DNA from: Collinsella sp. AF08-23
GTDB lineage: Bacteria > Actinomycetota > Coriobacteriia > Coriobacteriales > Coriobacteriaceae
Direction: 5' to 3'
Length of the DNA stretch: 64,000 nucleotides
NCBI RefSeq assembly: GCF_003479805.1
Contig: NZ_QUHV01000001.1
Location: forward strand, 258,742-322,741
Position 1 is the first letter of the stretch, and each line of letters begins with the position of its first letter. Under the pieces are notes generated by a model. That model made no database searches. It was not told where the DNA came from and saw only the letters and a list, made by a program, of their open reading frames with translations. Below are positions 2,945 to 57,861 of the stretch, piece after piece. The translations under genes and the position numbers were made by a program.

Positions 2945-2985
2945 CCCGATGTGTAAAGGGGGACGGGTGCGTTTTGCACATCGGG
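2945..2985. repeat. Variable-stem hairpin with conserved loop, copy 1
   Basis: Perfect 9-bp arms CCCGATGTG (2945-2953) and CACATCGGG (2977-2985) are extended by AAA/TTT pairs. The loop reads GGGGGACGGGTGCG, whose complement is CGCACCCGTCCCCC. It belongs to a family of four in this window (also 3017, 46183 and 57831) that shares the loop but not the stem. It lies in the agaS-nagA gap. Confidence 0.7.
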
Positions 2986-3016
2986 AAGGGCGTTTCGCCC
3001 ACATTTGGCTTTTAGC

Positions 3017-3057
3017 GCGGATGTGTAAAATGCACCCGTCCCCCTTTACATATCCGC
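3017..3057. repeat. Variable-stem hairpin with conserved loop, copy 2
   Basis: Arms GCGGATGTGTAAA (3017-3029) and TTTACATATCCGC (3045-3057) pair over 13 positions with one mismatch. The loop is ATGCACCCGTCCCCC. It lies only 31 bp after copy 1 with the loop in the opposite orientation, so the pair resembles a two-unit REP-type cluster. Confidence 0.7.
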
Positions 3058-3072
3058 ATTTGCTCCCATGAG

Positions 3073-3110
3073 GCGCCCGCCCGGTCTGCAAGGACGGGCG
3101 GGCGCTTTTC
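3073..3110 (+). terminator. Rho-independent terminator after agaS
   Basis: The perfect 11-bp stem GCGCCCGCCCG (3073-3083) and CGGGCGGGCGC (3095-3105) is followed by TTTTC. It separates agaS from nagA, so nagA probably has its own promoter in 3110-3165, where I see no convincing -35/-10 pair. Confidence 0.88.
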
Positions 3111-3178
3111 TTGCTGCTCGTTCGTTGCTTTCTGGGTACAAGCCCAGTGTGTGCATCAATATCGTGTTAGGAGAACAC

Positions 3179-4342
3179 ATGAGCACTTATGCAATCAAGG
3201 CCGATGCCTTCTATCTGCCCACTCGCGTTGCCCGTGACGGCTACCTCATGGTCGAGGATGGCGTTTTCGGCGAGTATGTGACCGAGGCCCCCGACTGCGA
3301 GATCCGCGATTACTCCGGTTGCGAGATCGCTCCTGGCTACGTCGACACCCATATCCACGGCTTCGACAATCATGACATCATGGACTGCGAGTCCGAGAGC
3401 GTCGCCATCGTGTCCCGTGGCATCCTGCGCAACGGCGTGACCAGCTACCTGCCCACCACGCTCACCGCGAGCACCGAGCAGCTCGAGCGCGCCTGCGCTT
3501 CCGTTGCCGAGTACGTCGAGGCTGGCGACGAGACGCCGCACGCCCGCATCCAGGGCATCTTCCTCGAGGGCCCCTTCTTCACCGAGAAGTACAAGGGCGC
3601 CCAGAACCCGGCTTACCTCTCCGCCCCCACCATGGAGAAGTTGAACGCCTGGCAGACCGCTGCGCACGGCCTCGTCAAGAAGATCGCCGTCGCCCCCGAG
3701 TACGAGGGCGCGGTCGAGTTCACCGCCGAGGCTGTGAAGTCCGGCGTTGTCGTGGCGCTCGGTCACTCCGCGGCCACCTGCGAGCAGGCTCAGGCTTGCC
3801 TGGACGCGGGCGCCAAGGTCTTCGTCCACACCTATAACGGCATGAGCGGCCTGCATCACCGCGAGCCCGGCATGGTGGGCGCCGCCCTTTCCAGCCAGGA
3901 TAAGTCCTTCTCCGAGCTCATCTGCGACGGCCATCACGTCAACCCCATCTCCGCGGGTATCGTGATGCACGCCAAGGGCCATGAGCATGTCGCGCTCATC
4001 ACCGACTGCATGTGCGCCGGTGGCATGCCCGATGGCGACTACTTCCTGGGCGAGCTGCCTGTCGTCGTCGCAGGCGGCACGGCCCGCCTCAAGGACGGCG
4101 GCTCGCTGGCGGGTTCCATCCTCAACATGAAGGACGCCGTCAAGAACGTCGCCGACTGGGGCGTTGCCACCAAGGCCGAGGCCATCTACATGGCTACTCA
4201 GGCTCCCGCCGAGGCCAACGACATCGCCGACGAGTGCGGTTCCATCCGTCCCGGCCGTCATGCCGACTTCGTCGTGCTGAACTCCGATCTCACCCTCGTC
4301 GAGACCTACCTCGGCGGCGAGAGCGTCTACGTCGAGAGGTAA
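3179..4342 (+). CDS. nagA: N-acetylglucosamine/N-acetylgalactosamine-6-phosphate deacetylase
   Basis: The 387-aa amidohydrolase has the family metal and active-site motifs in order: GYVDTHIHGFDN (HxH), LEGPFF, GHSAATCEQ, HTYNGMSGLHHREPG and LITDCMCAGG (catalytic Asp). It removes acetate from N-acetylhexosamine 6-phosphates in the cytoplasm. The start at 3179 is chosen because TAGGAG precedes it; the frame is open 37 codons further upstream, but that stretch overlaps the agaS terminator. Next to agaS it most likely serves the GalNAc branch (AgaA role) and possibly GlcNAc as well. The sequence cannot separate NagA from AgaA specificity. Confidence 0.9.
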   Translation: MSTYAIKADAFYLPTRVARDGYLMVEDGVFGEYVTEAPDCEIRDYSGCEIAPGYVDTHIHGFDNHDIMDCESESVAIVSRGILRNGVTSYLPTTLTASTEQLERACASVAEYVEAGDETPHARIQGIFLEGPFFTEKYKGAQNPAYLSAPTMEKLNAWQTAAHGLVKKIAVAPEYEGAVEFTAEAVKSGVVVALGHSAATCEQAQACLDAGAKVFVHTYNGMSGLHHREPGMVGAALSSQDKSFSELICDGHHVNPISAGIVMHAKGHEHVALITDCMCAGGMPDGDYFLGELPVVVAGGTARLKDGGSLAGSILNMKDAVKNVADWGVATKAEAIYMATQAPAEANDIADECGSIRPGRHADFVVLNSDLTLVETYLGGESVYVER

Positions 4343-4378
4343 CCATCGTTCTCTGGCGAGAGCGATATGAATCTTTAG

Positions 4379-4412
4379 CGCCCCGACCCGGTTGTACCGG
4401 ATCGGGGCGTTT
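4379..4412. terminator. Terminator between convergent nagA and DeoR regulator
   Basis: CGCCCCGA (4379-4386) pairs with TCGGGGCG (4402-4409), with an inner CCGG/CCGG pairing and a short TTTGAAT tail. The hairpin is strong but the T-run is weak. It may serve both converging transcripts. Confidence 0.65.
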
Positions 4413-4443
4413 GAATGCGAAACGTTCTTGAAGGCGAAGCGAA

Positions 4444-5223
4444 TCAGTCGGCGACGATTATTCGGGTTGATTCGAGGACCATGGAGCACTGTTCGTCGCT
4501 GACATTTGCATCGGTGATGAGCGCGTCCATCTGATCGAGGTTGTAGAAGCCGAAGAAGTCCATCTGTCCGATCTTGCTTGAGTCGCAGACGAGGTACCGC
4601 TCGGCGGCTCGATCACAAGCGAGCGCCTGCAGACGACCCTCCTCGAGGTTGGAGCAGGAGATGGATTGAGCGAGCACGCCGTTGGTGCCGATAAAGCACG
4701 TGTCGATACCGAGTGGGGCGAGCGCATCTTCCGCTACGGGACCGACGAAGGACCCCGAGCGCTTGCGATACTGTCCTCCCAGGGCGCAGATCTCCACGTC
4801 GCTGCGCGTTTGGAGCATGTTCAGCACGATGATGCTGTTTGTGATGACACGCAGCTGCATGGGCGGCAGTGCGCGGGCGATGAGGGCGCAGGTCGAACCG
4901 GGTCCGAGGAAAACGGTGTCATGCTCCTTGATCAGACCGACCGCGCAGTGCGCAATGCGTTCCTTTTCGGGCGAGCGTATCGAGAGCTTTTCAAAGAAGG
5001 GAACCTCGCCGGCGGTGGGGGTCCCGCTTGATAGGCGGATACTGCCGTGCTCGCGGCTTACGCCGCCATCTCGCGCGAGTTCATCGAAATCCCTGCGAGC
5101 GGTCATTTCGGAAATGCCGAAGATCTTCGCCGCTTGGGCGACGGTGACCATACCGCGCTGCATGCACAGTTTCAGCAATTGTTCGTGACGTTCAGATTTG
5201 AGCATGGCTTGCCAATCGGTCAT
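4444..5223 (-). CDS. DeoR-family transcriptional regulator (second of a coupled pair)
   Basis: The 259-aa protein has an N-terminal DeoR helix-turn-helix (VTVAQAAKIFGISEMTARRDF, about residues 26-46) and a C-terminal DeoRC sugar-phosphate sensor domain with the FLGPGSTCALIA and VITNSIIVLN motifs. Its ATG at 5223 overlaps the stop of the upstream regulator (ATGA), which indicates translational coupling; an internal Met (MLKSERHEQ) is an alternative start. The pair is divergent from the IIA-IIB-IIC-IID operon and probably controls it. The ligand is unknown. Confidence 0.87.
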   Translation of the reverse strand: MTDWQAMLKSERHEQLLKLCMQRGMVTVAQAAKIFGISEMTARRDFDELARDGGVSREHGSIRLSSGTPTAGEVPFFEKLSIRSPEKERIAHCAVGLIKEHDTVFLGPGSTCALIARALPPMQLRVITNSIIVLNMLQTRSDVEICALGGQYRKRSGSFVGPVAEDALAPLGIDTCFIGTNGVLAQSISCSNLEEGRLQALACDRAAERYLVCDSSKIGQMDFFGFYNLDQMDALITDANVSDEQCSMVLESTRIIVAD

Positions 5224-5984
5224 GCGGTGACAACGGAAATGTAAGTGCTGAGCGCCTCGAGGATCTGAGGGTCTGCGTCGGCGTTGACGAAGGCCGCGGT
5301 CATCTCCTCCAAGGTGGTGAACAGGCAGAAGTCGCGCCTACCAACTTTTACCGCGTCTACAACGAGGTAGCGCTCCTGGGCGCGTGCAAGGGCATCGGAA
5401 AGAACCATAGTCGCGTCGGGGCGAGAGCCGAAGACCTCATTTTCGAAAATTCCGGTGGCGGAGACATAGGCTTTTGGCGCCGAAAGGCCGTAGAGTCCGC
5501 GGCCGTTGTACGGCATGGTGAAGACGCGGGTGTCATGGCGCATCATGCCGCCAATGAAGAAGAGGTCGACATGGGGGTTGTCAGCCAATAAGTTCAAGAC
5601 GGGGAGGCTGTTGGTGACCACGCGGATGTCCTCCTGCGGCAGATACGAGCACATAAGTTCGAGTGTGGAGCCGCCCCCGAGGAAGATGGTATCGCCGGCG
5701 GAGACAGTGCGCGCCGCCGCCATCGCCGCCGCGCGTTTCTGTTCGACGTGGAAATGGCGCTTCTCTTCGTGTGAGATCAGGCGTGAGAGTGTCGTACCAC
5801 GTGCGGAGCGCGGCAGTTGGGCGCCGCCGTGTACGCGCACGAGCAGTCCCTTGTCGGCGAGCTCCGCCAAATCGCGCCGAATGGTCATATTCGAAACACC
5901 CAGGGTGTTGGATATCTCATTGACCGTAACGGAATGATGTTGATCGAGCAGGTCGAGAATGGCCTGCTGACGTTCGGATTTCAT
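5220..5984 (-). CDS. DeoR-family transcriptional regulator (first of a coupled pair)
   Basis: The 254-aa protein starts MKSERQQAILDLL and carries a DeoR helix-turn-helix (VTVNEISNTLGVSNMTIRRDL) followed by a DeoRC domain (FLGGGSTLELMC, VVTNSLPVLNLL). The start at 5984 is preferred because GGAAG precedes it; the frame opens 11 codons earlier at 6017 without a ribosome site. It is coupled to the next DeoR gene by a 4-base overlap. Two different DeoR proteins in one operon suggest a heteromeric or two-signal switch for the divergent PTS genes, which is inference. Confidence 0.87.
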   Translation of the reverse strand: MKSERQQAILDLLDQHHSVTVNEISNTLGVSNMTIRRDLAELADKGLLVRVHGGAQLPRSARGTTLSRLISHEEKRHFHVEQKRAAAMAAARTVSAGDTIFLGGGSTLELMCSYLPQEDIRVVTNSLPVLNLLADNPHVDLFFIGGMMRHDTRVFTMPYNGRGLYGLSAPKAYVSATGIFENEVFGSRPDATMVLSDALARAQERYLVVDAVKVGRRDFCLFTTLEEMTAAFVNADADPQILEALSTYISVVTA

Positions 5985-6240
5985 GGCCGTGAACTTCCTT
6001 ATCGAGCGTTTGTTCATATTTCAATTAAAGCGAACAACACAAATGAACGCAAATCGTTCACAGAAACACAACTACCTTTCACCGGTCAAAACAGCACGTT
6101 CACGGGAAAAAATCCATTGATACCAATTAAAAACGATAAAAAAGAGCGCGTTGTAAAAAACAATCCTTGACCAATAATCAAACATAGACGAACATAAATG
6201 AGCAGAACGAACATAATATAACAACATGAAAGGACAGCAG
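5985..6240. promoter_or_regulatory. AT-rich divergent control region with repeated CGAACA motifs
   Basis: This stretch is far more AT-rich than its surroundings. It holds a perfect palindrome TGAACG-N5-CGTTCA (6044-6060), an inverted pair TTGTTC (6010-6015) and GAACAA (6032-6037), and direct repeats of CGAACATAA (6189-6197 and 6208-6216), 19 bp apart. TTGACC (6167-6172) with AACATA (6191-6196) is a possible promoter for the PTS operon. The repeats are likely DeoR operators. Confidence 0.6.
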
Positions 6241-6681
6241 ATGCGTATTGGCGTTATCCTCGCGAGCCACGGAGAGTTTGCACGCGCCGCCCTCGGCGCC
6301 GTTGAGATGATTGCCGGCAAGCAGGGCGACGTCGTGGCGCTTGGTCTCACCGCCGAGAAGAGCCTGGAGACCTTCGAGGCCGAGATGCGCGAGGCCTACG
6401 AGACGCTCAACGCCGAGTGCGACTTGGTCGTCACCCTGTGCGACATCTACGGCGGCACCCCGTTCAACGTGACCACCCGCGCCCTGCTCAACGGGATGGA
6501 CATGGTCGCGTACACCGGCCTGTCGATGCCCGTGGTCGTCGAGCTCCTGTTGACCCGCGATGGCCTCGAGTCCGCCGATGCCGTCCGCGCACAGATCACC
6601 GCCGCGCATGCCGGTGCCCAGCAGGAGATCAAGGCCCCTGTTCCAGTCGCTGAGGACGATGGGGACGACCTCGATCTCTAA
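6241..6681 (+). CDS. PTS mannose/fructose/sorbose-family IIA component
   Basis: The 146-aa protein starts MRIGVILASHGEFARAAL; His10 in the ASHG motif is the expected phosphorylation site that takes phosphate from HPr. The family's CDIYGGTPFN motif is present. The C-terminus ends in an acidic tail. The start at 6241 follows AAAGGA at the right distance; an ATG at 6226 overlaps that ribosome site and is less likely. It is the first gene of a complete IIA-IIB-IIC-IID set. Confidence 0.88.
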   Translation: MRIGVILASHGEFARAALGAVEMIAGKQGDVVALGLTAEKSLETFEAEMREAYETLNAECDLVVTLCDIYGGTPFNVTTRALLNGMDMVAYTGLSMPVVVELLLTRDGLESADAVRAQITAAHAGAQQEIKAPVPVAEDDGDDLDL

Positions 6682-6798
6682 CTCGCCCGCGATCGCCGCC
6701 ACCGAGGGCGCGCGCCCGGCCCCCATTGGGTGGCGCCCCACGTGTTACGCCACTTGCTGGAAGCAATGAACATAAGTGCAAACGACAAGGAGAACATC

Positions 6799-7275
6799 AT
6801 GGCACTTAAGCTCGTCGACATTGATGACCGCCTGATTCACGGCCAGGTGGCCACGACTTGGATCCCGGACTTCGGCATCGAGTCCGCCATCATCGTCTCC
6901 GACAAGGTCGCCAATGACCCCGTTCAGAAGTCCGTGGCCGGCCTCGCCGCCCCCGACATCAAGGTCTCCGTCTTCGGCGTCGACAAGTTCATCGACGTCC
7001 TGAAGAAGACGGAGCTCAAGAAGGCCACGATGGTCCTGTTCACCAACCCCATCGACGCCCTCAAGCTGCATGAGAACGGCCTGCCGTTCGATTACCTGAA
7101 CGTCTCCGGCATGCGCTTCAACGATCAGCGCCATCGCCTGCACAAGAACATGTCCGTCACCGCCGAGGAGAAGGCCGCTTTCGAGGAGCTCATCGGCTTG
7201 GGCGTCGAGTGCTGGATGCAGACGACCACGCGCGATTCCAAGGAGCCGGTGTCCGAGCTCCTCAAGAACTACTAA
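6799..7275 (+). CDS. PTS mannose/fructose/sorbose-family IIB component
   Basis: The 158-aa protein begins ALKLVDIDDRLIHGQVATTW. His14 in RLIHGQV is the family's phosphorylated residue, which passes phosphate to the sugar during import. AAGGAG precedes ATG 6799; the frame is open upstream but without a ribosome site. Its length matches the family (about 160 aa). GalNAc-type specificity is suggested only by the neighbourhood. Confidence 0.9.
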   Translation: MALKLVDIDDRLIHGQVATTWIPDFGIESAIIVSDKVANDPVQKSVAGLAAPDIKVSVFGVDKFIDVLKKTELKKATMVLFTNPIDALKLHENGLPFDYLNVSGMRFNDQRHRLHKNMSVTAEEKAAFEELIGLGVECWMQTTTRDSKEPVSELLKNY

Positions 7276-7356
7276 GCCGGTAATCATCTCCGGGCATATG
7301 GGTCCGGAGTGTGCCCGCTGGATGCGTGCGGCGGGCGAATAGGGAAGGAGAGGCAT

Positions 7357-8166
7357 ATGCTTCAAGCACTTCTGCTCGCCATCTGGGCGGGTCTGTGCAC
7401 CTGGGACCAGTTCGGTCCCCACCTGGGCTTCCGCAAGCCCCTGCTGGCGTCCGTCGGCGTCGGCATCATCCTCGGCGACATGACGACCGCCATCATGATC
7501 GGTGCGACCATGGAGCTCATGTGGCTCGGCGTCAACAACATCGGCGCCTATGTTCCGCCGGATGTCATCTCCGGCACCATCGTCGGTGCTGCCCTGGGCA
7601 TCATGGGTGGCGGCGACACCGCCTCAGCCATCGCGCTCGCCGTCGCCATCGGTATCCCGACCGCTACCCTCGTTCAGCAGCTGAACATCCTGGTCATGAC
7701 CACCAACGTCTCCCTCGTCCACGGTGCTGACAAGGCCATCGAGTCCGGTAAGTTCAACGCTGTGAACAAGTTCTTCTGGACCGGCGCCCTCTGCTTCTTC
7801 CTGACGCGCGCCGTCCCGGTCTTCATCGCCACGGGCATCGGCTCCTTCGTGATCGAGGACATCATGAACTTCCTGCAGAACCAGGTTCCGTGGGTCCTCT
7901 CCGGCTTCTCCACCGCCGGTGGCATGATGCCCGCCGTCGGTCTGGCCATGCTCCTCACCATGATGATGAAGAAGAACATGTGGATCTTCCTGCTGCTCGG
8001 CTTTATCATGGCCGCCTTCCTCAACGTCCCGACCGTGGGCATCGCCCTGGCCGCCTGCGCCGCCGCCGGCGTGTGGGACGTCATTACCGAGGGCCAGAAG
8101 AACCAGCCCGCCCCTGCCGCCGCCCCTGCCGCCGGCTCCGATGATGACGAGGAGTACGATCTCTAA
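7357..8166 (+). CDS. PTS mannose/fructose/sorbose-family IIC component
   Basis: The 269-aa membrane protein has many hydrophobic segments and family-typical stretches (MIGATMELMWLGVNNIGAY, STAGGMMPAVGLAML). It forms the sugar-conducting membrane unit with IID. AAGGAG precedes the start. The C-terminus is a short Ala/Pro then Asp/Glu tail. The stop overlaps the IID start (TAATG), so the two are translationally coupled. Confidence 0.9.
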   Translation: MLQALLLAIWAGLCTWDQFGPHLGFRKPLLASVGVGIILGDMTTAIMIGATMELMWLGVNNIGAYVPPDVISGTIVGAALGIMGGGDTASAIALAVAIGIPTATLVQQLNILVMTTNVSLVHGADKAIESGKFNAVNKFFWTGALCFFLTRAVPVFIATGIGSFVIEDIMNFLQNQVPWVLSGFSTAGGMMPAVGLAMLLTMMMKKNMWIFLLLGFIMAAFLNVPTVGIALAACAAAGVWDVITEGQKNQPAPAAAPAAGSDDDEEYDL

Positions 8167-8996
8167 TGGGTAAGATCTCTAAGTCCACCCTGAACAAGGT
8201 GCTGCTGCGCACCCAGGGTTGCCAGTTCGCGCACAACTACGAGCGTATGCAGTCTCTGTCTCTGACCTACTGCTTCGCCCCCGTTCTCGAGGAGCTCTAC
8301 AAGGACGCCCCCAAGGAGGAGCGCGTCAACGCGATGAAGCGCCACCTCGAGTACTTCAACACCCACCCGCTCGCGATCCCCTTCATCCTCGGCATCACCG
8401 CCGCCCTGGAGGAGTCCACGGATGAGGACCAGAAGGACACCGTCGTCGGCATCAAGACCTCCCTCATGGGTCCCTTCGCCGGCCTGGGCGACTCCCTGCT
8501 GAACCTCACCTGGTTCCCGATCGCCGGCTCCATCGGCGCCTCCATGTGCGTCGACAACGGCTCCATCGTGGGTCCGCTCGTGATGTTCCTGCTCATCAAC
8601 CTGCTGTACTGGCCGCTGAAGTACTTCGGCCTGCACAAGGGTTACGAGATGGGCATGGAGCTCGTCGAGAAGGCCGGCGTCCAGGTCTTCGACCGACTCG
8701 GCAACCTCGCCAACGTCCTGGGCGTCATGGTCACCGGCGGCCTGGTCGCCACGACCGTCAAGCTCAAGCTCGCCGTGCAGTTCGCCTTCGGTGAAGGCGA
8801 TCCCCTGGTGCTCCAGGACCAGCTCGACAAGGTGCTGCCCTTCCTGCTGCCCGTCGTCCTGACGTTCATCTGCTATCGCCTGCTCAAGAAGGGCCAGGGC
8901 AAGAACTCCGCTCAGATCATCATCGGCCTGATCGTGTTCTCCCTCGTGTTCGCCGCCATCGGCTTCTATTTCCCGGCGTTCAAGATCTTCGCCTAA
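8166..8996 (+). CDS. PTS mannose/fructose/sorbose-family IID component
   Basis: The 276-aa protein has the IID signature of this family (YERMQSLSLTYCFAPVL near the N-terminus, then GIKTSLMGPFAGLGDSLLNLTW). Its C-terminal half holds several membrane segments. The ATG at 8166 overlaps the IIC stop codon. It completes the operon and is followed by a strong terminator. Unlike the IID at 1-609 it has no long acidic insert before its last membrane pair. Confidence 0.92.
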   Translation: MGKISKSTLNKVLLRTQGCQFAHNYERMQSLSLTYCFAPVLEELYKDAPKEERVNAMKRHLEYFNTHPLAIPFILGITAALEESTDEDQKDTVVGIKTSLMGPFAGLGDSLLNLTWFPIAGSIGASMCVDNGSIVGPLVMFLLINLLYWPLKYFGLHKGYEMGMELVEKAGVQVFDRLGNLANVLGVMVTGGLVATTVKLKLAVQFAFGEGDPLVLQDQLDKVLPFLLPVVLTFICYRLLKKGQGKNSAQIIIGLIVFSLVFAAIGFYFPAFKIFA

Positions 8997-9026
8997 TCGC
9001 GAGCCCGCCCAAGGCCGATCGTTCGA

Positions 9027-9060
9027 GGCCCGCGACCCGCATACCGGGCGCGGGCCTTTT
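9027..9060 (+). terminator. Rho-independent terminator after PTS IID
   Basis: Stem GGCCCGCG (9027-9034) and CGCGGGCC (9049-9056) with a further CCCG/CGGG pairing inside, followed by TTTT. It separates the PTS operon from the sulfatases. Confidence 0.85.
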
Positions 9061-9149
9061 CGACCGTCGGGGGCCGATGCCCGCCACGGGGCGGATGCCG
9101 AGCGGGTCCGCCGTCGATGGCGTGCCGCCCTCCAAATGAAAGGATCCCA

Positions 9150-10646: not shown

Positions 10647-10727
10647 CCGGCTGGCCAACCTGAAATGAAACGCATGCGCCCGAAACTGCCTTCGTTTTGG
10701 GCGCTTTCGTCAAGAGAGGAGACCCTC

Positions 10728-12206: not shown

Positions 12207-12221
12207 CAGAAAGGCAAGAAC

Positions 12222-12830: not shown

Positions 12831-12854
12831 CAGGGAAGGGTTCGAAAAGCCCGT

Positions 12855-13818: not shown

Positions 13819-13851
13819 AATGATATGCGGCGCTAACAGGTGATTCGATGC

Positions 13852-37019: not shown

Positions 37020-37391
37020 ATGCATGAGATCGGCATCGTCAATGGCATACTCAAGACAGTGATCGACACGGCGCGCGAGGCAGGTGCTTCGCGCGTCGTT
37101 TCCGTTAAACTGCGCATCGGTGACATGTGCGAGGTCGTTCCCGAGTCGCTCGATTTTGCCTGGGAGGTCTTTCGGGAGGATGACCCGCTCACAGGTGAAT
37201 CTGAGCTCGAGGTGGAGGATGTCCATCCCCGCAGCCGTTGCCTCGCGTGCGGTGATGAGTTTGACCACGACCGGTTCCACCTGCGCTGCCCTGCATGTGG
37301 GAGCCCGCAGACGCGCCTGTTGCAGGGACGGGAGCTCGACATCGTGTCAATGGAAGTCGAAACCGACGACGATTTCCAATTGGGGACGTAG
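37020..37391 (+). CDS. hypA: Hydrogenase nickel incorporation protein HypA
   Basis: The 123-aa protein starts MHEIGIVNGIL, with His2 and Glu3 as nickel site residues, and has a zinc site of Cys74/Cys77 (CLAC) and Cys90/Cys93 (CPAC). It hands nickel to NiFe-hydrogenase precursors with HypB. The next gene is hypB. The hydrogenase genes themselves are not in this window. Confidence 0.93.
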   Translation: MHEIGIVNGILKTVIDTAREAGASRVVSVKLRIGDMCEVVPESLDFAWEVFREDDPLTGESELEVEDVHPRSRCLACGDEFDHDRFHLRCPACGSPQTRLLQGRELDIVSMEVETDDDFQLGT

Positions 37392-37456
37392 TCGTTTTGG
37401 AAATCGTTTGGGAAAAACGGGGATAGAGTTGGAGCGAAAACAGGGAAGGGGACTTC

Positions 37457-46182: not shown

Positions 46183-46214
46183 TGTGTAAAAATGCACCTG
46201 TCCCCTTTTACACA
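46183..46214. repeat. Variable-stem hairpin with conserved loop, copy 3
   Basis: Perfect 9-bp arms TGTGTAAAA (46183-46191) and TTTTACACA (46206-46214) enclose ATGCACCTGTCCCC. It starts one base after the comF stop codon. Stem sequence resembles copy 2 in part, the loop almost exactly. Confidence 0.75.
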
Positions 46215-46231
46215 CCCCTTGCAACCTGCGG

Positions 46232-46237
46232 TATAAT
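46232..46237 (+). promoter_or_regulatory. Promoter -10 for the candidate raiA RNA
   Basis: A consensus TATAAT. The -35 would be TACACA (46209-46214, 17-bp spacer) inside the repeat hairpin, a weak match. Transcription would start near 46244. Confidence 0.6.
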
Positions 46238-46243: not shown

Positions 46244-46440
46244 AAGTTCCTTCCAGGCTGTGGTTGCGGGAGCGCGCGAGCGAAAAACGCCGTGCGCTCC
46301 CTAGTCCAAGACAGACGCGGTCAAAGGGATCCACGTAAGCCGAAGCGTGCGCGCGGAGGCGATCATGGCGCGTCCTAGAGGTCAGTCGCACCGTCCGTCC
46401 TACTTGTTTTTGAGGCAATAGTGCCTCGCGGGCGAGCGGG
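46244..46440 (+). ncRNA. Probable raiA-motif RNA
   Basis: A 360-bp non-coding leader follows a TATAAT box and lies between comF and the raiA/hpf gene region, the genomic place where the raiA RNA motif of Firmicutes and Actinobacteria is found. It has GGGAGCGC (46268-46275) pairing with GCGCTCCC (46294-46301), a conserved-looking unpaired block CAAAGGGATCCACGTAAGCC (46322-46341) and GAGGCA-ATAG-TGCCTC (46412-46427). I could not run a covariance search, and the 3' end is approximate. A long mRNA leader for the lipoprotein gene is the alternative. Confidence 0.55.
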
Positions 46441-46605
46441 CTAGTCGTGATGCCGCCGCGGCGGTTGAGCAAACGTCCCAGTGCGCAGGTGTGGGGTCAA
46501 AAACCAGGTCAGCTGGGGGAACATCGATGGAAAACGCCTGCGCGCGGATGCGTCAACGTGCGCTCGCAGGCGAGGCAGGGATGTTGGGTTGAGTCGGGGG
46601 CGAAG

Positions 46606-47592: not shown

Positions 47593-47737
47593 CCGCAAAC
47601 GGACCCTCTCGGCGCGACAATTCGGCAATCGGTTTACATGCTCCAGTCAACGGGAGTGCGACGGACTCGCGTGTGGAAGTGCCAATCTTGGGTACAACAA
47701 GGACATGGCCCTATCCCCGGATAGATTGGAAACACGT

Positions 47738-48322: not shown

Positions 48323-48347
48323 AATAGCATCCATTGCATGATTTGGA

Positions 48348-48384
48348 TGGCGGTCATCCCATGTGGGTGGCCGCCACTTTGTTG
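48348..48384 (+). terminator. Terminator after hpf
   Basis: TGGCGGTCATCCC (48348-48360) pairs with GGGTGGCCGCCA (48365-48376) with one bulge, followed by CTTTGTTG. Confidence 0.7.
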
Positions 48385-48398
48385 CGAAAGGCATGCAC

Positions 48399-49355: not shown

Positions 49356-49426
49356 CCCTCGCCACTATTCCCAAATGGCACACCCAAAAACATTGTTGAA
49401 AGACAGCCCTGTGAAGGAGTCGAGAT

Positions 49427-50542: not shown

Positions 50543-50548
50543 GTGAAG

Positions 50549-50965
50549 ATGCCGGCAGATTGGGCATTCGCCATCGTCAATGTATTGGTGTTCGGCTTTG
50601 CCGTCTACATTGGCTTCTTGCTCGGAGACGGCTGGGGCAAGCGCATCGTCACTGCCAAGGCCTACTGGCTCTGCAATCTCGGGATGCTCGTGGGTGCGGT
50701 GCTCTTGGTGACCCTCGTTGCGGTACCGCTTATCCAGGTGTGCGCCATGGGTGTGCTCGCGGGGGCAATCGCTGGGCTCAAGATGGGTTTTGGTGAGTCC
50801 GTCGGTCCCTGGAAGTGGCTTGATAACTTTATGGATGTCAACCGCCGTCATCGAAAGGTTGCCGAGAAGGGTAACGGCGAGGCGTATCGTCGCCGTCGTA
50901 AGACTGGCGAGGCGGGCCCCGACCTCATCTCGGTCGACAAGAAGGGCGCTTCCACCCGTGAATAA
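50549..50965 (+). CDS. Small membrane protein of unknown function
   Basis: The 138-aa protein has three hydrophobic segments (FAIVNVLVFGFAVYIGFLL, GMLVGAVLLVTLVAVPLI and CAMGVLAGAIAGLKMG) and a basic C-terminal third (NRRHRKVAEKGNGEAYRRRRK). GAGGAG at the end of the previous gene precedes ATG 50549; GTG 50543 is an alternative. No family recognised. Confidence 0.75.
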   Translation: MPADWAFAIVNVLVFGFAVYIGFLLGDGWGKRIVTAKAYWLCNLGMLVGAVLLVTLVAVPLIQVCAMGVLAGAIAGLKMGFGESVGPWKWLDNFMDVNRRHRKVAEKGNGEAYRRRRKTGEAGPDLISVDKKGASTRE

Positions 50966-51024
50966 GCGCTCTGCGCTTTTGATAGTGTCGCGTTAGTTGG
51001 ATAAGAAAGATACGAGGTATGCAC

Positions 51025-51720
51025 ATGGCAGAAGATTCCGCCGTCGAACTGACCCCCGAGGAGGCCGCGCGCCTTGCAAGCGTCGAGGGGAGCGCCGACG
51101 CCCTCTCCGCCCTCATTGAGGACCTGTCGAGCTCGAGCCGTCGTACGCGACAGCTTGCCGCCCGTGTGGTCAACCTGCTCGCCCAGCGCGACCCCGCACT
51201 CCTTGTGCCCTGCATTGAGCAGCTCATCGACGCGCTGTACCGCCCGGAGGCTCAGACCCGTTGGGAGATTCTCGACGCATTGACCCTGCTCGCCCCCGAG
51301 CACGCAAAGGAGTGCGGAGCCGCCTACGAGGGCGCCGAGTCGGCCCTGTTCGACGAGATCTCCGCTCCTCTACGCTTGTCCGCTTTCCGCTTCCTGACGG
51401 TGTGGGGCGCTACGGAGCGCCGTCGTTCCGAGAAGGTCTGGCCCATCATTGACGAGGCGATCCAGTGCTACCACGGTGACCTTGAGTACCGCGACATGCT
51501 CGCCCTGTTGTTCGCCTTTGCACACGGGCAAATCGCCGGTACCGTCGCCGCCGAGCTCGCCGGTCGCCTGCAGTTCGATGCCGAGAACGGCAAGGGGAGC
51601 TATCTGCGCGTGCGCTCGCGCGAGATATACGACGCGCTGGTTAAGCGCTTCAAGCTCGACAACCCGCAGAAAAAGGTTCGTGCCAAGAAGAGCGAAGCCG
51701 ACGATGAGGACGAGGAGTAG
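51025..51720 (+). CDS. HEAT-like helical protein of unknown function
   Basis: The 231-aa protein is mostly helical with two or three HEAT-like units, such as SSRRTRQLAARVVNLLAQRDPALL and RWEILDALTLLAPEHAKECG. The C-terminus is acidic. GAGGT precedes ATG 51025. It ends 3 bp before the dehydrogenase gene, so they are co-transcribed. No function can be named. Confidence 0.75.
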   Translation: MAEDSAVELTPEEAARLASVEGSADALSALIEDLSSSSRRTRQLAARVVNLLAQRDPALLVPCIEQLIDALYRPEAQTRWEILDALTLLAPEHAKECGAAYEGAESALFDEISAPLRLSAFRFLTVWGATERRRSEKVWPIIDEAIQCYHGDLEYRDMLALLFAFAHGQIAGTVAAELAGRLQFDAENGKGSYLRVRSREIYDALVKRFKLDNPQKKVRAKKSEADDEDEE

Positions 51721-51723
51721 ACC

Positions 51724-52809
51724 ATGGCCCACGATGTTGTGTTGATTCCCGGTGACGGTATCGGCCCCGAGATCACGAGCGCCATGCGCCGCGTGGTCGA
51801 GGCGACTGGCGTTCAGATCAATTGGAATGTGCAGAACGCCGGCGCCGGTGTGATGGATGAGTTTGGCACCCCGCTGCCCGAGCACGTCCTCGAGGCGGTG
51901 CGCGCCACCAAGGTCGCCATCAAGGGGCCCATCACCACTCCCGTGGGCACGGGTTTCCGCAGCGTCAACGTCGCCCTGCGCAAGGAGTTCGACCTGTACG
52001 CTTGTGTGCGCCCCTGCCTGTCGCAGCCCGGCGACGGCTCGCGCTACCGCGACGTCGACCTTGTTATCGTACGTGAGAACACCGAGGACCTTTATGCGGG
52101 CATCGAGTTTGACGAGGGTGCTCTCGAGGTGCAGAAGCTGAGCGAGCTCGTAGAGGCCTCCGGTCAGAAGACGTTCGCTCCCGATTCCGCCATCTCCATC
52201 AAGCCGATCTCCATCGCGCGCTGCAAGCGCATCGTGGAATACGCCTTCGAATACGCCCGTCGCTGTGGCCGCAAGAAGGTCACGTGCGTGCACAAGGCCA
52301 ACATCATGAAGGCGACCGACGGCCTGTACCTGCGCATCGCGCGCGAGGTGGCCGAGCGCTACCCCGATATCGAGTTCAACGACAAGATCGTCGACGCGAC
52401 GTGCATGGGCCTCGTCCAGGAGCCGCACGATTTCGACGTGCTCGTGTGCCTCAACCTCTACGGTGACATCGTGAGCGACCTGTGCGCCGGCCTGGTGGGT
52501 GGCCTCGGCATGGCCCCGGGTGCCAATATCGGCACCGAGGCTGCCATCTTTGAGCCCACGCATGGCAGCGCACCCGATATCGCCGGCAAGGATATCGCCA
52601 ACCCCACGGCTGAGATTCTCTCCGCCGCGATGATGCTCGATCATCTGGGAGAGGGCGAGGCCGCCGAGAAGATCCGCGCCGCCGTTCGCGCCACGCTTGC
52701 CGAGGGCACGCAGGTTACGGGTGACGTGCAGTGCGCGCTCACCGGCAGCACCGAGGGAGCCGTGGGGACGCAGGCGTACGCCGACGCCGTCATTTCGCAT
52801 ATTTCGTAA
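51724..52809 (+). CDS. Isocitrate/isopropylmalate dehydrogenase family, probable NAD-type isocitrate dehydrogenase
   Basis: The 361-aa enzyme shows [11 protein letters not shown], the substrate segment [35 protein letters not shown] and [20 protein letters not shown] with the metal Asp residues. The segment [18 protein letters not shown] fits the homoisocitrate/NAD-isocitrate group better than LeuB. It probably makes 2-oxoglutarate from isocitrate. No other leucine or citrate-cycle gene is adjacent. Confidence 0.85.
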
Positions 52810-52840
52810 TACATCGCATCGATAGAAGGGAGCGGACCGC

Positions 52841-53950
52841 ATGGGTCTGGTCATGAAGAAGGACGATTCCGAAGATAACGAGTACATTGACGGCATCGAG
52901 GTCATTGGTCAGGGCGAGGGGCCGGAGCCGGAGGCGGATGGTCCGTTCGTGGAGCTGCACGACGGTCCGACTGCAGAGGACATCTCGGGCAAGACCGCGG
53001 CGGCGGAGGCCGAGCGCGAGCTCGAAGCCGACCCCGAGCTGCTCGATGCCGCCGATGAGGATGCGGACGTTGAGCTCGATGCGGATTCCGACGGCGTCTC
53101 CACAACGAATGGATCTGCGGGCGGTCCGGGTAAGCGTCATAAGCTCTATATCGCCCTAGCCGTTATTGCCGTGGTCGCCGCCGCCATCGTGGGCTATGTG
53201 ATTGGCTCGGGTGGATTCGGCCAGAAGGGGACGGGTTCCGCCACGCTCACCGAAGACCAGCTCGACACCACCGTCGCCGCCTGGACCATCGACGGCGGCA
53301 CCCACAAGGTCTCTGCCCGCGAGGCCATCGAGAGCCAGTACAGCCTCGATAGCGTCAAGGGCGATGACGACACCTACCCTGCGCCCTCTGCCGAGGTCAT
53401 CCTCTCCTATGCCCGCAACCAGGTGCTCCTTGCGGCAGCTGAGAAGCAGGGTCTGACCGTCGACGACTCCGAGCTCGCCGCGGCTGCCGAGCAGTCCCTG
53501 GGCACCTCCGATTTCGAGACGATTGCGAGCCAGTATCAGGTCACGGAGGAGCAGGCCCAGGATATCGTTCGTCAGCAGGCGACCATTCAAAAGCTCTACG
53601 GCACCATCGTGAAGAATGCTCCCGCCGCTCCAACTGCGCCCGAGGAGCCGGCGGACGGCGATAGCACGACGGCGACCGCCGACTACGCCGCCTATATTCT
53701 CGACCTCGCGGGAGATGAATGGGATGAGGAGGCTGGTGCGTGGGCCGACTCCGACGGTACGTACGCTACGGCGTTTAGTGGGGACGACTTTGACGGCCAG
53801 ACTGCCACCTATGAGCAGGCGCAGAAGGCCTACGCCGCCGCGTATCAGGATTATGCGACTGAGGCCTCTAGCGCCAACCAGGATTGGACCGCGTACGTAA
53901 ATGGCCTGTTTGCCAAGGCGAATATCACGCTCTATGGTCTGTTCGCTTAG
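52841..53950 (+). CDS. Membrane-anchored protein with SurA-N-like region
   Basis: The 369-aa protein has an acidic cytoplasmic part (about 100 residues), one membrane helix (KLYIALAVIAVVAAAIVGYVIG, about 105-126) and an extracellular helical domain. The stretch SAEVILSYARNQVLLAAAEKQGLTVDDSELAAA resembles SurA/PrsA N-terminal chaperone regions. No peptidyl-prolyl isomerase domain is visible. It may help extracytoplasmic folding, which is tentative. The tail is rich in Ala, Asp and Tyr. Confidence 0.65.
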   Translation: MGLVMKKDDSEDNEYIDGIEVIGQGEGPEPEADGPFVELHDGPTAEDISGKTAAAEAERELEADPELLDAADEDADVELDADSDGVSTTNGSAGGPGKRHKLYIALAVIAVVAAAIVGYVIGSGGFGQKGTGSATLTEDQLDTTVAAWTIDGGTHKVSAREAIESQYSLDSVKGDDDTYPAPSAEVILSYARNQVLLAAAEKQGLTVDDSELAAAAEQSLGTSDFETIASQYQVTEEQAQDIVRQQATIQKLYGTIVKNAPAAPTAPEEPADGDSTTATADYAAYILDLAGDEWDEEAGAWADSDGTYATAFSGDDFDGQTATYEQAQKAYAAAYQDYATEASSANQDWTAYVNGLFAKANITLYGLFA

Positions 53951-53976
53951 ATGTAGAGCCTCCATATGACCGCCCG

Positions 53977-54030
53977 GATGCCCGGTGCGCCGCTCACGGG
54001 TTTGCCCGAGGCGGCCGCCGGGCATCTTGC
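53977..54030 (+). terminator. Probable terminator after the SurA-N-like gene
   Basis: GATGCCCGG..GCGCCGC (53977-53993) pairs with GCGGC.GCCGGGCATC (54011-54026) with a small bulge, followed by TTGCT. The T-run is short. Confidence 0.6.
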
Positions 54031-54138
54031 TATGCTGGGCATATGGTTCCCAAGGTGATCGCACGACTGCAAGATCGCGGTTCAGATCATGCACCCATGG
54101 TCCCCGCGCGTTCACCGGGTAAGAAGAAAGGACGACTC

Positions 54139-54948
54139 ATGAGCGAGACGTTTGAGAAGATGACGGCACATTGCAAGCCCACCATGGAGCATCCCGTTGC
54201 GATTGTGTTGGGCAGCGGCCTTGGCTCTTTGGGTGAGCGGGTGCGCGTTGTGCGTCATATCCCGTACAGCGACATCGACGGATTTCCCCCCGAGGCGATT
54301 CCCGTTGAGGGCCATCGTTTCACGGTGCTCGTGGGTGAGCTCGATGGCGTTCCAGTGGTCGTGTACCCCGGCCGTGTTCATATGTATCAAGGATACGATG
54401 CCCTTCAGGTGACGTCCCTGGTTCGTCATGCCCATAAACTGGGATGCCGCAGCATTGTCTTGAGCTGTGCTTCGGGCGCGGTTGGCGACATCGCTCCGGG
54501 AACGGTCGGCATCATTAGCGACCAGCTGAACCTCACGGGGCGCAATCCGCTTGCAACGCCCGCCGGCGTCGCGGCAGCCGGACTCGATAGCCCCTTCGTT
54601 TCCATGGCGGGCGCGTATTCTTCGTATCTCTCCGGCTTGGCGCGCGAGGCGGCGGCGGAGCTGGGAATGGAACTCGCGGAAGGTACGTATGCCGGCTTGC
54701 TGGGCCCCAACTATGAGACGCCTGCGGAGGTTCGCATGCTCGATGCGCTCGGCGCCGACTACGTGGGAATGTCCACCGTGTGCGAGACGATTATGGCACG
54801 TGCGCTGGGCATGGAGGTGCTTGGCATTACGCTTGTGACCAATAAAGCGGGTTGCCCGGGTGGTGGGCATGCCGAAGTGCTCGAGGCGGCGGATGCCGCC
54901 TCTGATGCCATGCAAGCGCTCGCCCTCGGCGTGCTCGCACGCATGTAG
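54139..54948 (+). CDS. punA: Purine nucleoside phosphorylase (trimeric, PNP-I type)
   Basis: The 269-aa protein has the phosphate-binding LGSGLGSLGERV and PGRVHMYQGYD, plus NYETPAEVRML and MSTVCETIMARALGMEVLGITLVTNKAGCPGG, whose Glu, Met and Asn contact the purine nucleoside. It splits guanosine, inosine or their deoxy forms to base and ribose 1-phosphate. AAAGGA precedes ATG 54139; the open frame upstream crosses a terminator and is rejected. Confidence 0.93.
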   Translation: MSETFEKMTAHCKPTMEHPVAIVLGSGLGSLGERVRVVRHIPYSDIDGFPPEAIPVEGHRFTVLVGELDGVPVVVYPGRVHMYQGYDALQVTSLVRHAHKLGCRSIVLSCASGAVGDIAPGTVGIISDQLNLTGRNPLATPAGVAAAGLDSPFVSMAGAYSSYLSGLAREAAAELGMELAEGTYAGLLGPNYETPAEVRMLDALGADYVGMSTVCETIMARALGMEVLGITLVTNKAGCPGGGHAEVLEAADAASDAMQALALGVLARM

Positions 54949-55105
54949 CGTTTCCCCGGGTCGCGGTGCGGTTTGCCTCCAGTGTGTGTCCTAGGTTTTG
55001 GGCCTGCTTGCCACTGATGCGAGTCGGTTGGTCTCGGCACTTCCTGCGCCGTACTCGCGGCTTGCAATGCAATGGCAGATTTTTCTAGGAAGCGGCACTA
55101 GGGGC

Positions 55106-55147
55106 TTGCGCCGCCGACGGTTTCCACGTACTATAAACAACCGTCGG
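55106..55147 (+). promoter_or_regulatory. tRNA-Thr promoter embedded in an inverted repeat
   Basis: TTGCGC (55106-55111), 17-bp spacer, TACTAT (55129-55134). Perfect 9-bp arms CCGACGGTT (55114-55122) and AACCGTCGG (55139-55147) flank the -10 box. The rest of 54949-55105 holds nothing I can identify. Confidence 0.7.
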
Positions 55148-55176
55148 TATGGTCATGCCGTATCGCGCATGGAACC

Positions 55177-55252
55177 GCCAGCGTAGCTCAGTTGGCAGAG
55201 CACCGCTCTCGTAAAGCGGGGGTCACCGGTTCGAGCCCGGTCGCTGGCTCCA
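55177..55252 (+). tRNA. tRNA-Thr (anticodon CGT)
   Basis: A complete 76-nt cloverleaf: acceptor GCCAGCG/CGCTGGC, D arm GCTCAGTTGGCAGAGC, anticodon arm CCGCT-CTCGTAA-AGCGG with CGT at 55210-55212, T arm ACCGG-TTCGAGC-CCGGT. CCA is encoded (55250-55252). It reads ACG codons. Confidence 0.97.
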
Positions 55253-55263
55253 TCGAAATCAGC

Positions 55264-55298
55264 AGGTCAGATGCTTCGCGCATCTGACCTGTTTTTTT
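55264..55298 (+). terminator. Rho-independent terminator after tRNA-Thr
   Basis: Perfect 11-bp arms CAGGTCAGATG (55264-55274) and CATCTGACCTG (55281-55291), followed by seven T. Confidence 0.95.
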
Positions 55299-55332
55299 CA
55301 GTCCACGCATCCCAAGATTCAACTTGTGCCTA

Positions 55333-55490
55333 CCGGAACGCAACCCATGCCTACCGAGATTGCCTATGATTCTCTTCCATTTGAACGTGGGAAACGGCAG
55401 ATAATCATAGGCAAACCCGATCGGGGCAGAGGTAGTTTGCGCCGGGGCATAGGCAAACCCGCCTTGGGCATAGGTGGTTTGCGTTTCCGG
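55333..55490. repeat. Nested direct and inverted repeats based on GCATAGGCAAACC
   Basis: TTGCCTATGATT (55360-55371) is the perfect inverse of AATCATAGGCAA (55403-55414). CATAGGCAAACCCG occurs at 55407-55420 and again 41 bp later (55448-55461). Outer arms CCGGAACGCAACCCATGCC (55333-55351) and the 55467-55490 segment are roughly complementary. The block lies between the tRNA terminator and the amidohydrolase promoter (TTGCCC 55496-55501, TACAAT 55518-55523). Confidence 0.7.
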
Positions 55491-55547
55491 GGTATTTGCC
55501 CAACAATTTCAAGTAGATACAATCCGATATGTGGGCAGGAGCGCAAG

Positions 55548-57197
55548 ATGGAAATCGGTCAGGTCGACTATGTGATCACATCTACCAGGGTGTTCACGAG
55601 TGAGGTGGGGGAGGACGCGGCGCGGCCCCTAGCGTTTGCCGTGGCAGGCGACCGCATCGTCGTCGTAGGCGCACCCGCCGACGTGATCGCCGCCTGCGTG
55701 CCCGACACGCCGGTGCTCGACTTCGGCGACGCCTTCATCTGCCCTGGCTTTCACGACGCCCACTTGCATTTCTTTCATACCGCGCTTGGCGCATCCCCGT
55801 ACCTGCTCATGCACATGGGCGAAAGCGAGGCCGAACTCGTGGCGCGCACCGTTGAGTTCGCCGCTGGGCTGCCCGATCACGCCTGGGTGGTCACGCAGGG
55901 TTGGCGCGATTACCGTTGGGACCCACCCGTGCCGCCCACCAAGCGCTCGCTCGATGAGGCATTTCCCACCCGCCCGTGCGTTATGTACTCGGGTGATGGC
56001 CATACGCTGTGGATGAACACCTGCGCCCTCGAGGCCCTCGGCGTGACCCGCGATTCCGTGCCCCCGCAAGGCGGCAGCTACGACCGCGACGAGAACGGCG
56101 AACTCACGGGCATCATCCGCGAGGCTGCTGCCATGGAGCTGCTCCCGCGGTGCCTTGAGTGGCTCACCGAGGACGACATCGCCCGCGCCTACGAGGACCA
56201 GATGACTCGCATGGCGGAGCAGGGAATCACCTCGATCTGCGATATGGCCCTCATGCCGCACCCCGGCTGCGATTTCATTCGCGACGACGTATACGAGAAA
56301 CTCTCGCGCGAGGGCAAACTCACCTTGCGCGTGCATATGTACCCCACGCTGCTCGACGACCAGTCGCGCCTGGAGGATCTGCAGGACCGTTACGCGGGTG
56401 ATGAGTTCCCGTTGCTGCGTGCCCCGGGTTTCAAACAGTTCTTCGACGGCGTGAGCAGCCAACATACCGCGTGGCTGACCGAGCCCTACACGAACGCGCG
56501 CTTCGACGGCGACTGTGGGCGTCCCACGGTGCCCACGGACCATATGCGCGAGCTGGTGCTGGCGGCTGCCGAGCGCGGTCATTCCGTGCGCATTCACACC
56601 ATCGGTGACCGCGCCATTCACGAGGCCCTCGACATCTTTGAGGAGGCGCTGGCTTGGTACGGTGCTTCTATGCAGGGCCGCAACACCCTTGAGCACCTAG
56701 AGAACCTCCTGCCCGAGGACATCGACCGCCTGGCAGATCTTGGCGTGCTGGCAAGCTCGCAACCTGGGCACATCACCCTCGACCCGGGTGGTCCCGAGCG
56801 CGACCTCGGCCCCGAACGCAGCCGCATCATGTGGCCATTCGCGACGTACACAGCGCGTGGCGTTGAGCAAGCTTTTGGCACTGATTCACCCATCACGGCC
56901 GTGACCAGCATGGATGTGCTCTATTGTGCCGTTGCGCGTCAGGATCCGTTTACCCATGAACCTTCGGGCGGCTGGCTGCCGAGCGAGCGCATCAGTGCCG
57001 CAGACGCGCTGCGCATCTACACTGCAGGCAGCGCCGCGGCGGTGGGCCGCGAGCACGAGCTCGGTCAAATTGCGCCCGGCTACCTGGCTGACTTCGTAGT
57101 GCTGGACCGCGACATCACCGTGTGCGACCCGGAGGAGATCCAATCTGCGCAGGTGCTTGTCACCTACGTGGGTGGTCAACGGGTCTACGAGCGGTAG
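55548..57197 (+). CDS. YtcJ-like amidohydrolase
   Basis: The 549-aa metal-dependent hydrolase (amidohydrolase 3 family) has GFHDAHLHFFH near residue 70, SGDGHTLWMN, ICDMALMP, VRIHTIGDRAI and AFGTDSPITAVTSM, the usual metal and active-site stations. Relatives act on varied amides and cyclic substrates; the substrate here is unknown. AGGAG precedes ATG 55548, while the frame upstream runs through the repeats and is rejected. It stands alone with its own promoter. Confidence 0.87.
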   Translation: MEIGQVDYVITSTRVFTSEVGEDAARPLAFAVAGDRIVVVGAPADVIAACVPDTPVLDFGDAFICPGFHDAHLHFFHTALGASPYLLMHMGESEAELVARTVEFAAGLPDHAWVVTQGWRDYRWDPPVPPTKRSLDEAFPTRPCVMYSGDGHTLWMNTCALEALGVTRDSVPPQGGSYDRDENGELTGIIREAAAMELLPRCLEWLTEDDIARAYEDQMTRMAEQGITSICDMALMPHPGCDFIRDDVYEKLSREGKLTLRVHMYPTLLDDQSRLEDLQDRYAGDEFPLLRAPGFKQFFDGVSSQHTAWLTEPYTNARFDGDCGRPTVPTDHMRELVLAAAERGHSVRIHTIGDRAIHEALDIFEEALAWYGASMQGRNTLEHLENLLPEDIDRLADLGVLASSQPGHITLDPGGPERDLGPERSRIMWPFATYTARGVEQAFGTDSPITAVTSMDVLYCAVARQDPFTHEPSGGWLPSERISAADALRIYTAGSAAAVGREHELGQIAPGYLADFVVLDRDITVCDPEEIQSAQVLVTYVGGQRVYER

Positions 57198-57436
57198 CGG
57201 TTGCCGAGGTGTTCTGCATGGATTGTCCATGCTCGTGAACGGTTAGCTAGCGGTGGGCAACTGGGGTTCATCGGCAAGATGCACGCCTTTGCGGACAATG
57301 TCCGGAAATGGGGTCAAAATGTCCTAAAACGCCTTCAGACGTCCGGAAAGCAATCGATGCTCGATCGCGTCTTTGCGATACCCAATGAGCGCTCAGGAAA
57401 TCTAAGTGCCGGTTTATAAGATTTTTTGAAGTCGTG

Positions 57437-57465
57437 TTGTATAACTTCTGGAAGCTGGGTACTAT
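57437..57465 (+). promoter_or_regulatory. groES-groEL promoter
   Basis: TTGTAT (57437-57442), 17-bp spacer, TACTAT (57460-57465), about 70 bp before groS. I find no CIRCE (TTAGCACTC-N9-GAGTGCTAA) or HAIR element. The stretch 57198-57436 shows three similar segments around TGTCCGGAAA (57297 on), TGTCCTAAAA and CGTCCGGAAA, but nothing recognised. Confidence 0.7.
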
Positions 57466-57532
57466 TCATCGCGTACATAAACCGCATGGGCCTTGGCGTG
57501 GAGCCGGGGTGCCAGCAAAGGAGGAGACGAAC

Positions 57533-57820
57533 ATGTCTTTGAAGCCGCTTGCAGATCGCGTTCTGATCAAGCCCGACGCTGCTGAGCAGAAGACCGCTTC
57601 TGGTCTGTACATCGCCAGCAACGCCCAGGAGAAGCCGCAGCGCGGCACCGTCGTCGCCGTGGGCGCCGGCAAGCTCAACGACAAGGGCGAGCGCCTGCCG
57701 CTCGACGTTCACGAGGGCGATGTTGTCATCTACGGCAAGTTCGGTGGCAACGAGATCAAGGTCGACGGTGAGGACTACCTCCTCATGCGCGCCGACGACA
57801 TCTACGCCGTCGTCGAGTAG
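57533..57820 (+). CDS. groS: Co-chaperonin GroES
   Basis: The 95-aa protein is a complete GroES: SLKPLADRVLIKP at the start, the mobile loop EQKTASGLYIASNAQEKPQ, and YLLMRADDIYAVVE at the end. It caps GroEL. AAAGGAGGAG precedes ATG 57533. The next gene is groL, after a hairpin repeat. Confidence 0.97.
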   Translation: MSLKPLADRVLIKPDAAEQKTASGLYIASNAQEKPQRGTVVAVGAGKLNDKGERLPLDVHEGDVVIYGKFGGNEIKVDGEDYLLMRADDIYAVVE

Positions 57821-57830
57821 CATCTCCGGA

Positions 57831-57861
57831 CCTCAATTTAGTGCCTGTCCCTAAATTGAGG
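57831..57861. repeat. Variable-stem hairpin with conserved loop, copy 4
   Basis: Perfect 10-bp arms CCTCAATTTA (57831-57840) and TAAATTGAGG (57852-57861) enclose GTGCCTGTCCC. The stem is unrelated to copies 1-3 while the loop is nearly the same. It sits inside the groS-groL operon, and no T-run follows. Confidence 0.8.

Follow-up and report, generated by a model that had tools for sequence, protein, structure and literature searches.

Dispersed hairpins in Collinsella are probably copies of the terminal repeats of TIRYT-type Y1 transposase genes

A 64-kb stretch of Collinsella DNA, referred to here as the window, contains several hairpins with a common apical sequence. These hairpins probably derive from the terminal repeats of TIRYT-type, RAYT-like Y1 (HUH) transposase genes, as dispersed and non-autonomous copies. 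On this reading they are REP-like elements of the TIRYT type, which behave like REPs and represent a hairpin variant in which the core is nearly fixed and the stem is lineage-specific. The source genes would be of the TIRYT type, coding for a core protein of about 250-290 aa, part of them with a C-terminal helix-turn-helix. Their transposase would act on the folded single strand, where it may read the core plus the lineage-specific stem, and could carry hairpins, singly or as inverted pairs, to new sites. Two families are carried by the window: type A, for which flanked genes were located in G021 and G026, and type B, for which a probable gene is present in G031.

Hairpins in the window

The four hairpins described in a first-pass annotation of this DNA were all found in place (Table 1), and the loop that they were said to share proved to be associated with a stem. 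Indeed, the motif GYRCCYGTCCC occurs four times in the window (both strands), and all four sites carry a stem scoring at least 8. Stems of this quality surround arbitrary 11-nt loops at 175 of 63,925 positions in the window. In 400 first-order Markov resamplings of the window, no motif site with a stem of at least 8 was obtained; compared with four out of four real motif sites, this rules out a chance origin of the hairpins. Single-stranded DNA folding gave z values of -3.9 to -7.6 for the four hairpins. The first two (2945-2985 and 3017-3057) are arranged as one inverted pair whose cores point inward, and this pair (113 bp) folds as one long hairpin (z = -9.1). The stems had been described as four different, self-complementary sequences. 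They are paired, but only two classes could be distinguished, three hairpins having a TGTGTAAA-type stem (type B) and one a CCTCAATTTA stem (type A). On the opposite strand, the loop reads GGGAC(A/G)GG(T/C)(A/G)C, mostly with one extra 5' G. Reverse-complementing the loop as first annotated gives GGGGAC(A/G)GG, the core used below for Coriobacteriia.

Table 1. Hairpins and the paired element located in the window.
Feature	Position	Strand	Description
Type B hairpin	2945..2985	-	Core GGGGACGGGTGC on + strand, loop motif on - strand; left half of inverted pair
Type B hairpin	3017..3057	+	Loop GCACCCGTCCC on + strand; right half of inverted pair
Mini-element of two inward-facing type B hairpins	2945..3061		Boundaries from alignment, good to a few bases
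Fifth hairpin	37369..37407	+	Core GGGGACGTAG, stem ACGATTTCCAA
Type B hairpin	46183..46214	+	Directly 3' of the stop codon of a ComF-like ORF, 5' of raiA RNA
Type A hairpin	57831..57861	+	CCTCAATTTA stem, loop GTGCCTGTCCC; groES / groEL spacer

The core of the fifth hairpin, related to that of the other four, is similar to the flanks of a transposase gene in another locus (L114). This hairpin is not purely intergenic, since an ORF (37020-37391, presumably coding for a HypA-like product) extends into it with its 3' end and uses the TAG of the core as its stop codon. No RAYT-like Y1 transposase gene was found in the 64 kb of the window, and an Rfam search of the window at the gathering threshold returned nothing but raiA and one tRNA. 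A promoter-like pair, TACACA-17-TATAAT, is located at 46209-46237, just 5' of the raiA RNA (46248-46521). The TACACA hexamer lies in the 3' arm of the neighboring type B hairpin; thus, the insertion may have altered the raiA promoter.

Copies in related genomes

Dispersal was counted in relatives of the window's genome. The ComF-like protein of the window matched 31 loci (29 from Collinsella, 1 from Candidatus Limicola and 1 from a distant Hydromonas), with C. stercoris as the best match (72%). The loop pattern was found 61 times in C. stercoris (G001, complete genome), compared to 29 for the reversed control. Four other genomes displayed no clear excess over this control (17/23, 20/23, 14/10 and 18/26).

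Patterns combining stem and core were cleaner than the loop pattern alone. Over 43 genomes, type A copies numbered 107 in G021, 46 in G026, 27 in G001 and 11 in G020, with one copy in each of four further genomes and none in the other 35; the reversed control gave 8 single matches across the 43 genomes. For type B, 21 copies were counted in G020, 8 in G031 and 4 in G001, and none in 40 of the 43 genomes, the reversed control giving 0. The idea of a genome-wide family therefore holds for a few related genomes, where both families are dispersed, but not for the remaining genomes, which stay at control level.

In G001 and G020, type A and type B occur side by side with distinct stems. C. stercoris contains type A copies, yet a different hairpin (GATGTGTAATTTGGGGTCAGACCCC) borders the 260-aa gene of this species. 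For G020, which contains both families, the profile search of Collinsella genomes gave no Y1_Tnp match. Copies therefore exist without a matching gene, as is the case for type A in G001 and for the two families in G020.

Transposase genes flanked by hairpins

Y1_Tnp matches were found in 37 of the 43 Collinsella genomes, as short IS200-like genes and longer ones. All 19 longer proteins that were aligned match PF01797, and also NF047646 at E <= 1e-3, although the single score given for the latter (69.2) is under the cut-off of 80. The HUH (NH-x-H) and Y-x3-NP motifs were seen both in individual ORFs and in the alignment. Helix-turn-helix profiles matched part of the 19 proteins at E <= 0.01, HTH_23 in 5, HTH_7 in 4 and other profiles in fewer. 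Hairpin-linked genes code for approximately 250-350 aa, and aligned members are 35-42% identical to the first. At E <= 1e-20, the transposase protein was present in 89 of 246 Coriobacteriia genomes.

Ninety-eight loci were read: 69 of more than 150 listed places (30 + 39), plus 29 others, some places being read twice. Two loci without a usable ORF were dropped. A hairpin common to both flanks was present in 66 of the 96 remaining loci before redundancy removal. Removing proteins at least 90% identical discarded 23 of the 96 and left 73 non-redundant genes. Among these, 52 had a shared-flank hairpin, compared to 11 of 216 mismatched flank pairs; the former count is favoured, because redundancy removal gave priority to loci richer in hairpins. 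At a stricter similarity of 0.9, the values were 34 of 73 and 3 of 216. The other 21 of the 73 genes were without a shared hairpin. Pairing across lineages is partly built into this set, since hairpins were picked as paired and shared; the mismatched flanks are given as a control. The RAYT-type transposase that had been supposed to copy such repeats has a counterpart in these relatives, where hairpins of this kind flank Y1 transposase genes.

The two genes flanked by type A hairpins, L090 and L082, are located in G021 and G026, the two genomes with most type A copies. By one count, the G021 gene (L090) has one stop in the matched frame; the ORF scan gave 247 aa. From its flanking sequence, L075 of G031 is the probable type B transposase gene: GGGGACAGGTACAAATTG-like repeats lie on either side of it, with a reduced stem, and it is outside the 52.

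Two observations were made in C. stercoris. In L112, beside the 260-aa Y1 gene, hairpins GATGTGTAATTT-GGGGTCAGACCCC have the type B outer stem and a palindromic core. Two 60-bp perfect inverted repeats (L177, 11370-11429; L180, 17830-17889) display a constant stem and a changing loop, their 25-bp arms being identical save for the outermost base and their 10-nt loops being different.

Core and stem between transposase lineages

The core was placed in each hairpin by its best match to GGGGACAGG. This choice inflates apparent conservation; the same choice was repeated on shuffled hairpins. The best core match averaged 7.6/9, compared to 5.8 in shuffled hairpins, and pairwise core identity was 0.76, compared to 0.46 in shuffled hairpins treated alike.

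Stem-arm identity was 0.86 for protein pairs more than 70% identical (13 pairs) and 0.43-0.45 below this level, close to the shuffled value of 0.39; below 70% protein identity, the stems are thus almost entirely different. In the same protein classes, core identity was 0.95 and 0.78-0.84, respectively. Mantel tests against protein similarity, with 8 of 52 rows dropped, gave r 0.17 (p 0.005) for the core and r 0.25 (p 0.0005) for the stem. The core coefficient and the core identity classes indicate that, to a small extent, the core varies with the proteins as well. For stem specificity in the C-terminal part of the protein as opposed to the Y1 part, partial correlations were 0.10 (p 0.036) and 0.09 (p 0.052); they vanished without close pairs and did not discriminate between the two parts.

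A maximum-likelihood tree was built for 46 proteins, after dropping 6 of 52 rows with a core match below 7. It contained young clades with a common stem (GGGAAAA; TGAGACAA; GGGTTG). In the sisters L274/L276, L270/L273 and L207/L210/L211, the stem differs and the core is kept, save for its last base in L210. Other cores were found in some lineages (GGTGACAGG, GGCGTCAGG, GGGGACGTG, GGGGTCAGA). By eye, the core is paired in about a dozen of the 52, extending into a palindrome such as GGGGACAGTCCCC. Thus, "constant apical core" is a better description than "constant loop". Stems that change while remaining paired, as first proposed, were recovered between transposase lineages, but such change is not free between copies within a genome.

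Variation within families

The analyses of G021 and G026 were confined to stretches already known to contain copies. In G021, 77 of 82 cores had at least 6 of 11 pairs, and the outer stem CTC/GAG was invariant in all 75 distinct hairpins. The inner pairs form a loose mosaic of AT-rich arms: arms matched 7.9 of 11 positions with their own partner and 7.2 when swapped, with a maximum of 7.7 in 500 swaps. In G026, the own value of 8.0, compared to 7.6 for swapped arms, was within the swap range (maximum 8.25). In G001, where the sample is a mixture of families, the values were 7.8 and 6.4. Covariation within type B, judged by eye, was not convincing.

Hairpins less than 250 bp apart were oriented inward in 17 pairs of G021, in the same direction in 13 + 4, and outward in none; the inward arrangement is also that of the hairpins flanking the genes. 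The corresponding pairs were 2 inward, 5 same-direction and 1 outward in G026, and 3 inward and 1 outward in the G001 sample. According to crude ORF calls, 31 of 77 hairpins in G021, 12 of 18 in G026 and 11 of 19 in G001 were outside ORFs, compared to 13%, 11% and 11% of bases.

We tentatively propose that TIRYT-type Y1 transposases might read a two-part DNA address, made of an apical core, GGGGAC(A/G)GG, largely retained throughout the class and a lineage-specific stem, and that replacement of the stem might create a new independent family. If this is true, several families could coexist in one genome without cross-talk, and could outlive the loss of their transposase. It is rather unlikely that the transposase reads the core with any folded stem, the stems differing through drift and founder effects. 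The loose matching of inner stem pairs within a family would suit this reading, as would the finding that, beyond close pairs, stem similarity does not track the similarity of either protein domain (r 0.03 and 0.02). However, the invariant outer CTC/GAG of type A in G021 is hardly expected of free drift, and distinct type A and type B stems are kept alongside each other in G001 and G020.

Repeats in Pseudomonadota

The transposase protein was also found, at E <= 1e-20, in 110 of 299 Pseudomonadota genomes. A GGGTCAG-type core was present in inverted orientation on both flanks at 22 of 30 loci and on at least one flank at 29 of 30, compared to 0 and 1 for the reversed control. A shared hairpin was detected at 1 of 29 loci, or at two with a slightly different flank choice. 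In Pseudomonadota, the core is mostly GGGGTCAGG, followed by a lineage-specific linear sequence. Since these repeats are mostly not hairpins, the hairpin form is a feature seen in Coriobacteriia loci and not in the whole protein group. With the proposed two-part address, the linear repeats of Pseudomonadota would share the core except for a single base (GGGGTCAGG). In Coriobacteriia, a kept core with replaced stems makes the DNA choice of the protein, and the acquisition of a new repeat address, directly testable.

Insertion polymorphism and insertion sites

Comparison of genome sequences supports the mobility of the hairpins through insertion polymorphism, and empty sites were found in C. stercoris, in G020 and between two C. 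aerofaciens strains. C. stercoris matches both flanks of the mini-element, with 2 bp between them, compared to 117 in the window (2945-3061). At this site, G020 has 22 bp between matching flanks, compared to 137 in the window; in a shorter comparison, its flanks were 92.5% and 99% identical. Of the two C. aerofaciens strains (L023 and L005), with at least 96.5% identity adjoining the site, one carries an element with two inward-facing GGGGACGTTC cores that the other does not have. G031 (L283) contains at the site of the mini-element a diverged inward pair with cores GGGGACAGGTGC and GTACCTGTCCCC and different stems; this pair is either an independent insertion or a decayed shared one.

The groES-groEL spacer was inspected by eye in 30 loci. 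Other or decayed hairpins were seen in four: L134 has one of GGGTCAGACCC type, L159 has one type A and one type B, and those of L135 and L158 are decayed. None was seen in the other 26, including C. stercoris. The different and decayed hairpins in several species suggest that this spacer (57821-57941 in the window) is a recurrent insertion site. Between ComF and raiA, the motif with a stem was not found in L001-L031, and no hairpin was seen by eye upstream of raiA in five further genomes, two surveys that decayed copies could escape. Flanks at groES-groEL and ComF-raiA were too diverged for exact insertion boundaries.

The location of the hairpins beside groES-groEL, ComF/raiA and other housekeeping genes, and the overlap of one 3' arm (46183-46214) with a promoter-like site, would suit a host regulatory element, whose constant loop is selected by a binding protein or RNA and whose link to the transposase is secondary. 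We consider this highly improbable, because the sites are not conserved across species, most Collinsella genomes have 0-1 copies, and hairpins flank transposase genes in inverted order. That the hairpins are intrinsic terminators or attenuators, alike by constraint, is hardly credible: the window copies do lie at or after gene ends, but no terminator-like match (GC-rich stem and T run) was found at the hairpins, the sole match (3084-3103) is a separate downstream hairpin, and termination does not need a constant core.

Comparison with known systems

As probable copies of transposase terminal repeats, the hairpins can be compared to several published systems. Canonical REP/REPtron/REPIN systems (groups 2 and 3) are similar in having dispersed hairpins tied to a Y1 transposase and a gene-specific repeat, with dispersed copies, often in inverted pairs, that match the gene flanks, as was found here in relatives. 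However, none of the four window hairpins has the GT[AG]G foot, and the shared sequence is apical. Because they are without GTAG, the window elements are not canonical REPs. The REP/RAYT reading of the first-pass annotation is thus retained for the link to a RAYT-type Y1 gene, the dispersal and the empty sites, but not for canonical REPs. Corneloup et al. 2021 (PMC8266576) describe TnpAREP proteins that differ in their dependence on GTAG, stem and loop; single loop positions matter and are fixed in group 3, while only a non-specific role is given for the loop in E. coli.

IS200/IS605 elements have a related Y1 domain and hairpins near their ends. However, the short IS200-like genes of Collinsella are separate, with much higher Y1_Tnp scores. 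An IS200/IS605 TnpA of about 150 aa in near-identical copies was not what we found, the hairpin-linked genes being longer and 35-42% identical. In openly licensed literature, searched through titles and abstract openings for RAYT, TnpAREP/REPtron and Collinsella repeats, no description of the hairpin family was found among the papers listed; the strings GTGCCTGTCCC and GGGACAGGCAC occur only in papers with unrelated titles.

Judged by motifs, length and helix-turn-helix, the Coriobacteriia proteins would fit closest to TIRYT/TIRtron, mostly subclass 2.1. Di Nocera et al. 2013 (PMC3733652) described TIRYT genes with TIRs that partly share GGGGWSAS, some of them self-complementary and some repeated. 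Common to both systems are a Y1 transposase carrying the HUH and Y-x3-NP motifs, inverted repeats that border the gene on either side, and some TIRs that are self-complementary and repeated in the genome. GGGGACAG fits the published TIR core, whereas the common variants GGGGACGG and GGGGACGT misfit at position 7. In contrast to the TIRYT repeats as described there, the Coriobacteriia core is usually located at a hairpin apex, above a lineage-specific stem. Quentin et al. 2018 (PMC6006769) placed 20 of 26 TIRYT in subclass 2.1, the second-largest TnpAREP group (14.9% of strains), and reported that REP-like sequences were not found for 2.1. The dispersed families of Coriobacteriia, in contrast, reach about 100 copies. 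For the DNA partners of subclass 2.1, left open in PMC6006769, Coriobacteriia supply dozens of natural transposase/hairpin pairs.
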